Source: Campylobacter sputorum subsp. sputorum
Lineage (GTDB): Bacteria; Campylobacterota; Campylobacteria; Campylobacterales; Campylobacteraceae
Direction of reading: 5' to 3'
Length of the DNA stretch: 64,000 nucleotides
Assembly: GCF_008245005.1 (NCBI RefSeq)
Contig: NZ_CP043427.1
Location: 434,001 to 498,000 of the forward strand
Shown here: one piece after another, positions 33,539-39,569 of the stretch
Position numbering within the stretch: the first letter of the stretch is position 1
Layout of the letters: every line of letters begins with the position of its first letter
The notes under the pieces: model-generated
The model's input: the letters and a program-made list of their open reading frames with translations, nothing else
What the model was told of the DNA's origin: nothing
Databases searched by the model: none
Position numbers and translations under genes: made by a program

Positions 33539-34105
33539 ATGGCATATTCTATGGGAGATTTAAAAAAGGGACTAAAGATAGAATTAGAAGGTGTTCCTTA
33601 TAAAATTGTAGAGTATCAACATGTAAAACCTGGCAAAGGAGCGGCTTTTGTTAGAGTTAAAATAAAATCATATATAGATGGTAGAGTTTTAGAAAAAACT
33701 TTTCATGCAGGCGATAAATGTGAAACTCCAAATTTAGAAGATAAGCAAATGCAATATCTTTATGATGATGGTGAGTTTTGTCAGTTTATGGATACTACTA
33801 CTTACGAACAAATCGCAATTAGCGATGAAGAGGTTGGAGAGAACAAAAAATGGATGCTTGATGGTATGATGGTTGATGTTTTGTTTCATAATGGTAAAGC
33901 AATCGGACTTGAAGTTCCTCAGGTTGTTGAGTTAAAGATAGTAGAAACTGCTCCAAATTTCCGTGGCGATACACAAGGAAGCAATAAAAAACCAGCCACA
34001 CTTGAAACTGGTGCAGTTGTGCAAATTCCTTTTCATGTATTAGAAGGCGAAGTTATCCGTGTTGATACGGTTAGAGGCGAATATATAGAAAGAGCAAATA
34101 AATAA
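33539..34105 (+). CDS. efp: Elongation factor P
   Basis: A 188-residue factor that rescues ribosomes stalled on polyproline. The loop [14 protein letters not shown] carries Lys33, the position modified by lysylation in many bacteria. It has three beta-barrel domains with the usual length. A very strong palindromic terminator follows. Confidence 0.98.
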
Positions 34106-34114
34106 TTTTTTATT

Positions 34115-34146
34115 TTGTATCTGTTTTAAATTTAAAACAGATACAA
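34115..34146. terminator. Bidirectional terminator between efp and the selenoprotein gene
   Basis: A perfect 32-base palindrome, TTGTATCTGTTTTAAA and its exact complement. T-rich tracts flank it on both sides. It separates convergent efp and the minus-strand SelW-like gene, evidence that the latter is a real transcribed gene. Confidence 0.8.
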
Positions 34147-34156
34147 GTTTTTAAAT

Positions 34157-34387
34157 TTAAATCATATCAATAAGCTTTAAAATTTCTCCATCATTAGGAA
34201 ATCTAGGCTCATCCATATCTCTTTTTGAAAATATAATCTTTCCATCTACTTCAATTATGAAGTTACCGCCACTACCTGCTACAAGTTCTATCTTTGCATC
34301 ATTATAGACGCTTTTTATTTCTTCTTCCACACGGGAAGCTTGTGGTCTATAAGATCAAGAATTACAATAAGTAATCTTTATATCCAT
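34157..34387 (-). CDS. SelW-like (Rdx family) selenoprotein with in-frame TGA
   Basis: The minus strand from ATG at 34387 encodes 76 residues if the TGA at 34355-34357 is read as selenocysteine (residue 11). The start reads MDIKITYCNS-U-SYRPQASR, placing Sec at the second position of the CxxU redox motif of the SelW/SelT/SelH thioredoxin-like family, followed by the usual Y-x-P-x-A. Downstream EEEIKSVYND, ELVAGSGGNFIIEVDGKIIF and FPNDGEIL also match the family. An AAAGG ribosome site precedes the ATG, and a SECIS-like hairpin lies just after the TGA. Probable role: small periplasm-independent redox protein in the cytoplasm. Decoding needs SelA-D, which are not in this window. A stop-inactivated CxxC gene is the alternative. 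Confidence 0.85.
34324..34338 (-). promoter_or_regulatory. Candidate bacterial SECIS hairpin
   Basis: On the minus strand, CTTCC-CGTGT-GGAAG forms a 5-bp stem with a 5-base loop. The loop guanine at its second position lies 23 bases after the TGA. Bacterial SECIS elements need a short loop with G in the first two positions, about 16-37 bases past the UGA, so the fit is good. Confidence 0.65.
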
Positions 34388-34485
34388 CTTTTAACCTTTA
34401 TTTTAAAATAAAAGTGCATTATAGTAAGTAAATTTAAATTTATTATAACATTGTATAATTACTAAAATCATATAAAGGAGTTTTT

Positions 34486-35028
34486 ATGAAAGTAGCGATT
34501 ATCTTAGCAACAGGTTTTGAAGAAATTGAAGCTGTTAGCATTATAGATATTTTAAAAAGAGGTGGTATTGATTGTGTTAGCGTGGGATTAGATAGAAGAA
34601 AAGTTACTGGGGCTCATAACATTACTGTGTATGCAGATATTGTATTAGATGATTTGCTTGTAAGCGAGTATGAAATGGCTATTTTGCCAGGTGGTTTACC
34701 AGGAGCAGATAATCTTGCAAATAGTAATAAGCTTTGCGAAATATTGCAATCTTTTGATGCGAACAATAAACATATCGGTGCTATTTGTGCTGCACCATTT
34801 GTGCTTGCTAAATTTGATTTAATTAAAAACTCATACACTTGCTATCCTGGTTTTGAGAAAAATGTGAATAAAAGTGGTTATATATCAAATCAAAATGTAG
34901 TTCGCGATCACAATATAATGACTTCTTGCGGTCCTGCAACAGCTATGGAATTCGGATTAGAAATTCTAAGAGAACTAAAAGGTGAAAAAGTATATTTAGA
35001 TGTTAAAAATGGATTGCTTTTTGAGTAA
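34486..35028 (+). CDS. DJ-1/PfpI family protein (YajL-like)
   Basis: A 180-residue DJ-1 superfamily protein. The N-terminus KVAIILATGFEEIEAVSIID, the glycine-rich AILPGGLPGADNLANS and the nucleophile elbow with its cysteine, IGAICAAPFVLA, are all intact. Relatives include YajL and DJ-1, linked to protein deglycation or oxidative-stress chaperoning; the exact activity is disputed. It is monocistronic. Confidence 0.9.
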   Translation: MKVAIILATGFEEIEAVSIIDILKRGGIDCVSVGLDRRKVTGAHNITVYADIVLDDLLVSEYEMAILPGGLPGADNLANSNKLCEILQSFDANNKHIGAICAAPFVLAKFDLIKNSYTCYPGFEKNVNKSGYISNQNVVRDHNIMTSCGPATAMEFGLEILRELKGEKVYLDVKNGLLFE

Positions 35029-37715: not shown

Positions 37716-39569
37716 TTAGTTAAAAGGTTTTTTATAATCAATTACTAATGCTCTATAACCGATTATATTTCCACCAACCATTTTGATTTCTAATTCTGGT
37801 GTTTTTGTGCCATATTTAAACTCATGAAGATATGGAGCAAGTTCTGCCGTGCCATTTCTAAATGCAACTAAATCCCCCATTCCAGCAGTAGCACTATAAA
37901 CCATCATAGTATCTGTTTTAGGTATATATTCTGTTACCGAGGTTATTGGGCTATACCATTCAAGTCCTCTTTCTTTACCAAATTCCCAAACTTGTTTAAC
38001 GGTCATATTTTTTTCATCAACTTCGTATTCAACTGCACGGCTGTATTTCATACTAACCATTGCAGGTTGCTCCATTCCGCGGCTATCTCCGTTATCAAAA
38101 GTGCTTATATGTCTTAGATGACCTTTTGATTTTTCTGGTATGACATAAGCAGTATGCTGTGTCCATGAGTAGTCAAATCCACCTTTTTCGCTTAAATATC
38201 CAGGGCAATGTGAGCCTTGTGCTTCACAAACTATCTTTTTGCCTTTTTCGTCAATTGGGGTTAGAATATATTTTTTATATTCATCGCTCCATCCCTCAGG
38301 AGAGCTTAAAATCCATTTTATTTTTTTATCTCTACCTATTTTTATTACAGCACTTTGGTGACGACTTGAAATAATGATACTATCATCGTATGGATCGTAA
38401 TTAACGCTATTTACATGAGCCCAGTTTCTGCCAGGTCCAACACCTGCAACATCGCCAAATGGCATATTGTCGCTCTCTAACTCTTCTTTTGAGACTGTTT
38501 GTCCAGCTTTACTAGCATCTACATTCAAGCAAACTGCACCTTGATCCATTGCTAGGATATTGTTATCTCTATACGGATCTAAAATTTCACTTAAATTCCA
38601 TTCATCTATAACATTTCCTTCTTTATCAAGTTCAACTATCACATCTCTAACAGTTCTTACATTTTTGCCGTCTTTGCGTTTCATATCTGAATCAGCAACA
38701 CGCAATAAATATGTGCCTTTACTTGTTTCTTCTGCATGGTGTGAAAAATCAATGTATGAACGAGGAAGCATTCTATCAAAAACTTTACGACCCATTAAGT
38801 CATATTTTTTGTAAGTTTGACCCATGCCCCAGAGTAAATTTCCATCTGATGTTTGATCAAAGCCCATCATATTGCCTTTTTTTCTTATATCATAAGGGTC
38901 TCTAAATTTGCTTACATCAAGTTGCCACCTAATGTCACCATTTGTATCAATCATCCATACATAACTTTCATAATCCCATTCTAAGGCACCTCCAGCAGGA
39001 TGGTTCCAAACAACTTGACTAGCATTTGGCAAAATTGAACTTAAATGATTCATTAGATATAAATTGTTTTTAACTTTAGGTGAAGCAGGGACTATAACTT
39101 CAGCTTTTGGTAAAAAGTTTTTTTGTGCAGTTCCTGAGCCATAAGTTGTAATCGGTGGTGCATAAATAGAGTATGTTTCGTTGATTTTTTGAGATTTTGC
39201 ATTTTTACCGCCCGGCTCAAATCTTGTGTAACTAACTTCAACTGTATTTATAAAATCTGGATAAAGCCCAAAAATAGGAATTCCTGCATATTGCATAAGT
39301 TTTGTATCTGATACATTATATTGTATATCAATGCCTTTACTACCTTTGCCCTTAACCGTAACTTTGGCGTCTTTTATGTGATATCCGCCATCATTAATTA
39401 TAGCAGTAAGCGGTGCTGTTCCATAAGGATTCATCACAACTGCACCTATTTTGCCAACAGCATTATATGTTTTTGGACCACTTGCTCCGCCAGCTGCGTA
39501 AATATCAGCAGGTGTTATACATACTAACAATCCTGCAACTAAGATTGATAAAGAAATCTTTGATTTCAT
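37716..39569 (-). CDS. astA: Periplasmic arylsulfate sulfotransferase
   Basis: A 617-residue enzyme moving sulfate from aryl sulfates to phenol acceptors. A Sec signal peptide ends near residue 26 (DIYAAGGASG). The beta-propeller carries the catalytic-His environment: SYIDFSHHAEE, RNWAHVNSVN, ISSRHQSAVI and, near His472, SWTQHTAYV, which I take as the covalent-intermediate histidine. Cys448 and Cys455 (VCEAQGSHC) match the structural disulfide of E. coli ASST, which needs a Dsb partner. In C. jejuni astA is beside dsbI-dba; here those genes are 20 kb away. It is divergent from a histidine kinase gene. Confidence 0.95.
   Translation of the reverse strand: MKSKISLSILVAGLLVCITPADIYAAGGASGPKTYNAVGKIGAVVMNPYGTAPLTAIINDGGYHIKDAKVTVKGKGSKGIDIQYNVSDTKLMQYAGIPIFGLYPDFINTVEVSYTRFEPGGKNAKSQKINETYSIYAPPITTYGSGTAQKNFLPKAEVIVPASPKVKNNLYLMNHLSSILPNASQVVWNHPAGGALEWDYESYVWMIDTNGDIRWQLDVSKFRDPYDIRKKGNMMGFDQTSDGNLLWGMGQTYKKYDLMGRKVFDRMLPRSYIDFSHHAEETSKGTYLLRVADSDMKRKDGKNVRTVRDVIVELDKEGNVIDEWNLSEILDPYRDNNILAMDQGAVCLNVDASKAGQTVSKEELESDNMPFGDVAGVGPGRNWAHVNSVNYDPYDDSIIISSRHQSAVIKIGRDKKIKWILSSPEGWSDEYKKYILTPIDEKGKKIVCEAQGSHCPGYLSEKGGFDYSWTQHTAYVIPEKSKGHLRHISTFDNGDSRGMEQPAMVSMKYSRAVEYEVDEKNMTVKQVWEFGKERGLEWYSPITSVTEYIPKTDTMMVYSATAGMGDLVAFRNGTAELAPYLHEFKYGTKTPELEIKMVGGNIIGYRALVIDYKKPFN

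Follow-up and report, generated by a model that had tools for sequence, protein, structure and literature searches.

The window (the whole 64,000-nucleotide stretch of Campylobacter sputorum subsp. sputorum DNA that was analysed) very probably carries, to judge from its sequence, a functional SelW-like selenoprotein gene of the Rdx family. The gene lies on the minus strand, and its in-frame TGA is followed by a hairpin of the bacterial SECIS type. This reading is preferred because four lines of evidence agree: membership in the SelW/Rdx family, selenocysteine machinery in the genome, a TGA that is kept across relatives, and a hairpin with compensating base changes. The strongest covariation after the active site of SelW selenoproteins, between residues 18 and 21, is probably written by the pairing of this hairpin and not by the protein. 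The features of the locus are as follows.

34157..34387, minus strand: selW-like selenoprotein gene, 76 codons plus TAA, predicted from sequence and profile matches
34355..34357, minus strand: in-frame TGA, codon 11, predicted to be read as selenocysteine (CxxU motif C8-N-S-U11)
34324..34338, minus strand: bacterial SECIS-type hairpin (CUUCC 34338..34334, loop CGUGU 34333..34329, GGAAG 34328..34324)
34395..34399, minus strand: possible ribosome-binding site AAAGG, 7 bases upstream of the ATG, found by eye
34418..34423, minus strand: possible -10 promoter element TATAAT, found by eye
34114..34147, plus strand: terminator-like hairpin whose T-run is confined to the plus strand; consistent with efp rather than selW

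Genomic locus and family membership

The frame runs on the minus strand from the ATG at 34387 to the TAA at 34159..34157. The initial annotation described it as 76 codons broken by the TGA at residue 11 alone, at the second redox position of a CxxU motif, and both statements are borne out by the sequence. A standard-code listing of open reading frames holds only a 57-aa ORF with a GTG start at this locus. The frame is located in the gap of 380 bases, correctly reported before, between the end of efp (34105) and the start of a DJ-1-like gene (34486). Both of these genes are found near selW in 27 of 60 family loci, for which about 2 kb were examined on each side; the DJ-1-like gene alone is found in 14, efp alone in one, and neither in 18. 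No DNA similar to the selW locus was found in the phage records searched. Elsewhere in the window (37716-39569, minus strand), a 617-aa ORF has a translation that we take to resemble arylsulfate sulfotransferase.

Of the signals that had been cited in support of the gene, the terminator is not borne out. As a ribosome site, AAAGG at 34399..34395, read by eye, is a possible candidate. The terminator-like hairpin is found on the plus strand alone, the side of its T-run, so that it fits efp and is no evidence for selW. The TATAAT at 34423..34418 is absent from the sites found in a promoter scan, the total of which was not above that of shuffles.

For the profile searches with the 76-residue translation, which had been proposed along with the initial annotation, Cys was put in for codon 11. 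The protein matches Pfam PF10262 Rdx (3.8e-18, 65.9 bits against a cut-off of 22.6), the NCBIfam equivalog NF041051 SelTWH_Campy (6.6e-32, 109.6 bits against 88) and TIGR02174 (1.4e-14, 54.1 bits against 34.2), each above the curated cut-off, and no difference from the first two families was noted. A search of the whole genome with PF10262 returned the selW-like frame as the single match. Sequence matches to the solved Rdx structures 3dex, 2fa8, 2obk and 2oka have E-values of 1.6e-6 to 4.8e-4; these are cysteine proteins, with Cys in all four alignments where selenocysteine is predicted here.

A SECIS-type hairpin downstream of the TGA

No insertion signal was given in the initial annotation; it is located here. 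The 5-bp stem begins 16 bases 3' of the TGA, with its arms at offsets 19-23 (5') and 29-33 (3') counted from the T of the TGA, and a G stands early in the loop CGUGU. All five pairs are found in register in 58 of 59 family rows, or 48 of 49 distinct rows, a count that leaves out L093 (an N in the stretch), the second copy of L068 and two TGC copies. When the partners were slid by -3 to +3 columns, the full stem was found in 0, 0, 0, 0, 0 and 3 of the 49 distinct rows. The in-register stem is complete in 39 of 42 further loci and has four pairs in the other three (L030, L033, L035). Across relatives, base changes in the stem compensate each other. The one failing family row, L105, is the selW relic of genome G098 and keeps four of the five pairs; in this genome, which lacks selB, the stem persists in a weakened form.

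As background, the fixed-register stem was counted after every TGA and TGC of the window and was found at 22 of 2252 TGAs and 20 of 1811 TGCs. When a G is also required at one of the first two positions past the stem, 8 of 2253 TGAs on both strands remain, and the frames are open on both sides in one of these eight, the selW-like gene. A lenient best-stem scan returned a stem in 42 of 42 further loci, but a similar scan for any 5-bp stem returned 601 of 2252 window TGAs and 4 of 9 TGC plasmid loci; since lenient stems are that common in window TGAs and TGC loci, only the fixed register is counted as evidence. The folding energy of the stretch gives a z of -1.20, with 23 of 200 shuffles folding equally well, and an Rfam scan of 34000-34600 returned five hits with E-values up to 5, of which none reached the gathering score. 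Another candidate hairpin, CCACA...UGUGG (offsets 12-16/26-30), was rejected because relatives do not preserve its pairing.

Ten plasmid loci were taken from 15 hits. The Thermomicrobium locus has a TGA and five of five pairs; the other nine, from two bacterial families only, have TGC and one to three of the five pairs. On the Thermomicrobium roseum plasmid NC_011961.1 (L154), the annotated Rdx CDS begins after the in-frame TGA. The upstream part and the complete hairpin suggest that this is a truncated annotation of a SelW selenoprotein.

A tandem selW pair is found in L068, L070 and L072, three of the five fetched genomes of one genus group (g2) with selW. In L068 the second copy has a TGA, and its complete stem lies one codon further on; in L070 and L072 it has a TGC, and the hairpin is not intact. 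Of the five pairs, these two TGC copies keep three and none in register, and two and four one codon later; no 5-bp stem was found in either by the lenient scan. From their sequences, an exchange of selenocysteine for cysteine after duplication is possible in these two copies.

Coupling of residues 18 and 21

The stem spans the codons of residues 17-22, and because the hairpin lies inside these codons its pairing would tie residue 18 to residue 21: the pairs 21-31 and 22-30 link the first two bases of codon 18 with those of codon 21. The coupling was analysed in 86 distinct rows of 101 (family and further loci). Residues 18-21 are S-E in 45 of the distinct rows, A-A in 22, F-K in seven, S-G in five, and F-E and L-R in two each; A-V, V-A and T-V are seen once each, the A-V row being the relic. 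Among the 91 pairs formed by residues 12 to 25, this one has the highest mutual information, with 1.349 bits against 0.844 for the next pair, and 0.768 against 0.212 after column-mean correction.

The third codon bases, which are free of the protein, behave in the same way. Those of S18/V20 are paired in 26 of 26 distinct rows (C-G in 10, T-A in 15, G-C in one), those of S18/L20 in 13 of 13, those of S18/A20 in 9 of 9 and those of A17/E21 in 46 of 46. Since the third-base pairs change together too, RNA is the better explanation of the coupling. On a tree of 99 rows, the 18-21 state must have changed 17 times or more. The rows share ancestry, and well-supported branches give only two independent comparisons for 18-21 and one for the third-base pair; for this reason no significance is given for the coupling.

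In the Rdx fold, positions three apart may share one helix face, and the coupling might accordingly stem from a side-chain contact between residues i and i+3 of a helix, with F-K and S-E readable as contacts. Such an origin is unlikely. A protein contact cannot explain the third-position pairs kept in all 26 and all 46 distinct rows, and the cysteine forms, without the hairpin in register, have other residue pairs, S-A and G-A. The coupling thus remains best read as a product of SECIS pairing. In a limited search of the open-licence literature, no description of a natural coupling of two residues by a SECIS hairpin was found.

The point is small but testable: an in-frame recoding hairpin can make two residues co-vary in a way that is mistakable for a protein contact. 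If the reading is true, residue coupling imposed by RNA would be a fingerprint at the protein level for finding hidden selenoproteins, and it would be a trap for contact prediction from covariation.

Conservation of the TGA and co-occurrence with selB

Both genomes searched in the genus have the TGA, which is kept in the sister genome at 96% protein identity. In the family, SelTWH_Campy matches at E<=0.001 are found in 103 of 153 genomes, 79 of them over the cut-off. Among the 106 family matches listed, 103 have one TGA. The three without are the TGC second copies of G005 and G016 and a match in G098 that starts after the TGA, which was missed for this reason and is present when the locus is aligned by hand. 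Codon 11 is TGA in 61 of the 63 gene copies of the 60 fetched family loci, and TGC in the other two. At the order level, TIGR02174 matches are found in 81 of 398 genomes, with one TGA in each of the 82 matches listed. When named genomes were scanned, 14 relatives were found, belonging to Arcobacter, to Desulfobacterota and to further phyla, all with TGA at codon 11, and the same holds for each of the 42 further loci, which come from several phyla and of which five are genes already in the family set. The selW gene of the window is ordinary for its clade.

To call selB present, a best match below 1e-60 was required; this holds for 118 genomes over the profile cut-off and for G129 and G132, which have full-length matches just under it. 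The 33 genomes with weaker matches to the selB model presumably contain only EF-Tu and the like. Among the 153 family genomes, 101 have both TGA-selW and selB, one has selW only, 19 have selB only and 32 have neither (Fisher p 1.4e-18, for genomes that are not independent). G098 is entered here without TGA-selW; if its relic is counted as TGA, the numbers are 101, 2, 19 and 31. The lone selW-only genome, G133, in which selB was not found, is 57% complete. Since 19 genomes with selB lack selW, the gene is dispensable. Miller et al. 2017 reportedly described Campylobacter clades deficient in selenium metabolism.

Other stops or frameshifts in relatives had been named as evidence that would speak against the gene. 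One relative with a further break was found in the 153 genomes, G098, which has no selB; its selW frame is shifted before the TGA. This decayed copy, and the fact that the window's frame closes at codon 11 in the standard code, could suggest a pseudogene or a sequencing error in which the TGA is a plain nonsense codon. Such an origin is highly improbable, as the TGA is kept in the closely similar sister, in nearly all family copies and in all further loci, and as the base changes in the hairpin compensate each other.

A second alternative would be that only a truncated product is made, from the internal GTG start at 34330 (57 aa) and lacking the redox motif. The ORF is open in the standard code, and the Thermomicrobium relative is annotated from just such a start after the TGA. 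Nevertheless, there is very little room for this explanation: conservation extends over the ten codons that precede the TGA, with I5, Y7 and C8 invariant in 15 rows, and the hairpin makes sense for recoding only.

Selenocysteine machinery of the genome

The genome (1.75 Mb, one contig) was searched for selA, selB, selC and selD, the lack of which would have spoken against the gene, and the full set was found. There is one tRNA-Sec (54.8 bits, over the Rfam cut-off), which ARAGORN also calls, with the anticodon tca. The selB, selA and selD genes are each over their profile cut-off, and selA adjoins selB. The selD gene (G000:C1:82052-82960, outside the window) has itself one in-frame TGA, at the AGU site, with a short possible hairpin after it as read by eye. 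One TGA each is also found in two fdhA-like frames (1579162-1580820 and 1667422-1669245, outside the window), whose matches to the formate dehydrogenase alpha model stay under the cut-off. From these sequences, at least four genes of the genome look like selenoprotein genes.

Taken alone, the sequence of the window's gene is also compatible with a TGA decoded as another amino acid, e.g. as Trp or Cys by a near-cognate tRNA. This is hardly to be expected in a genome with tRNA-Sec, selA, selB and selD, for a gene that tracks selB and whose distant relatives encode the aligned cysteine by TGC.

For the selenoprotein reading, the following steps are proposed. SelB with Sec-tRNA would bind the hairpin, and the UGA would be read as selenocysteine. 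The product would be a thioredoxin-like oxidoreductase of 76 aa, and its C8/U11 pair may cycle between a selenylsulfide and the reduced state. Residue 18 would be tied to residue 21 by the base pairing.

Comparison with known SelW genes

SelW-like proteins were described in other bacteria in 2006, with cysteine forms scarce in organisms that use selenocysteine, according to the available part of that paper (PMC1794560). A 2026 review counts them, in the portion at hand, among the proteins predicted with high confidence (PMC13188914). In Epsilonproteobacteria, the accessible text of Cravedi et al. 2015 (PMC4607533) reports unannotated SelW genes with a common hairpin of 5/6 bp that follows the TGA by a few bases and has an invariant G in its loop. 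The gene of the window is like these in being of an unannotated type and in having a hairpin with a loop G after the TGA. For a SelW of C. fetus, the same text gives no optimal SECIS, and the 18-21 coupling was not found in that part of the paper. From recombinant work, as far as the excerpt goes, it is known that a SECIS inside the reading frame can make changes to the protein unavoidable (PMC11431864).

The closest known system is SelW of C. jejuni, predicted on CJnc60, for which Ribo-seq, termination profiling and peptides show translation past the UGA and for which read-through needs tRNA-Sec, as given in the available sections of PMC11955535. Its ORF (80-81 aa) is likewise small, contains a UGA and was missed by annotation. 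In contrast, the gene of the window belongs to a different GTDB genus, has 76 aa and is known here from sequence. The earlier description of the gene as hidden thus holds under the standard code, but a curated NCBI family exists and the C. jejuni gene is published. With the gene of the window, one more selenoprotein would be confirmed of a kind that standard-code gene calling would miss. The SelW kind of gene was already known in Campylobacter; what is added here is the located hairpin, its weakening in the absence of selB, and the coupling of two residues.
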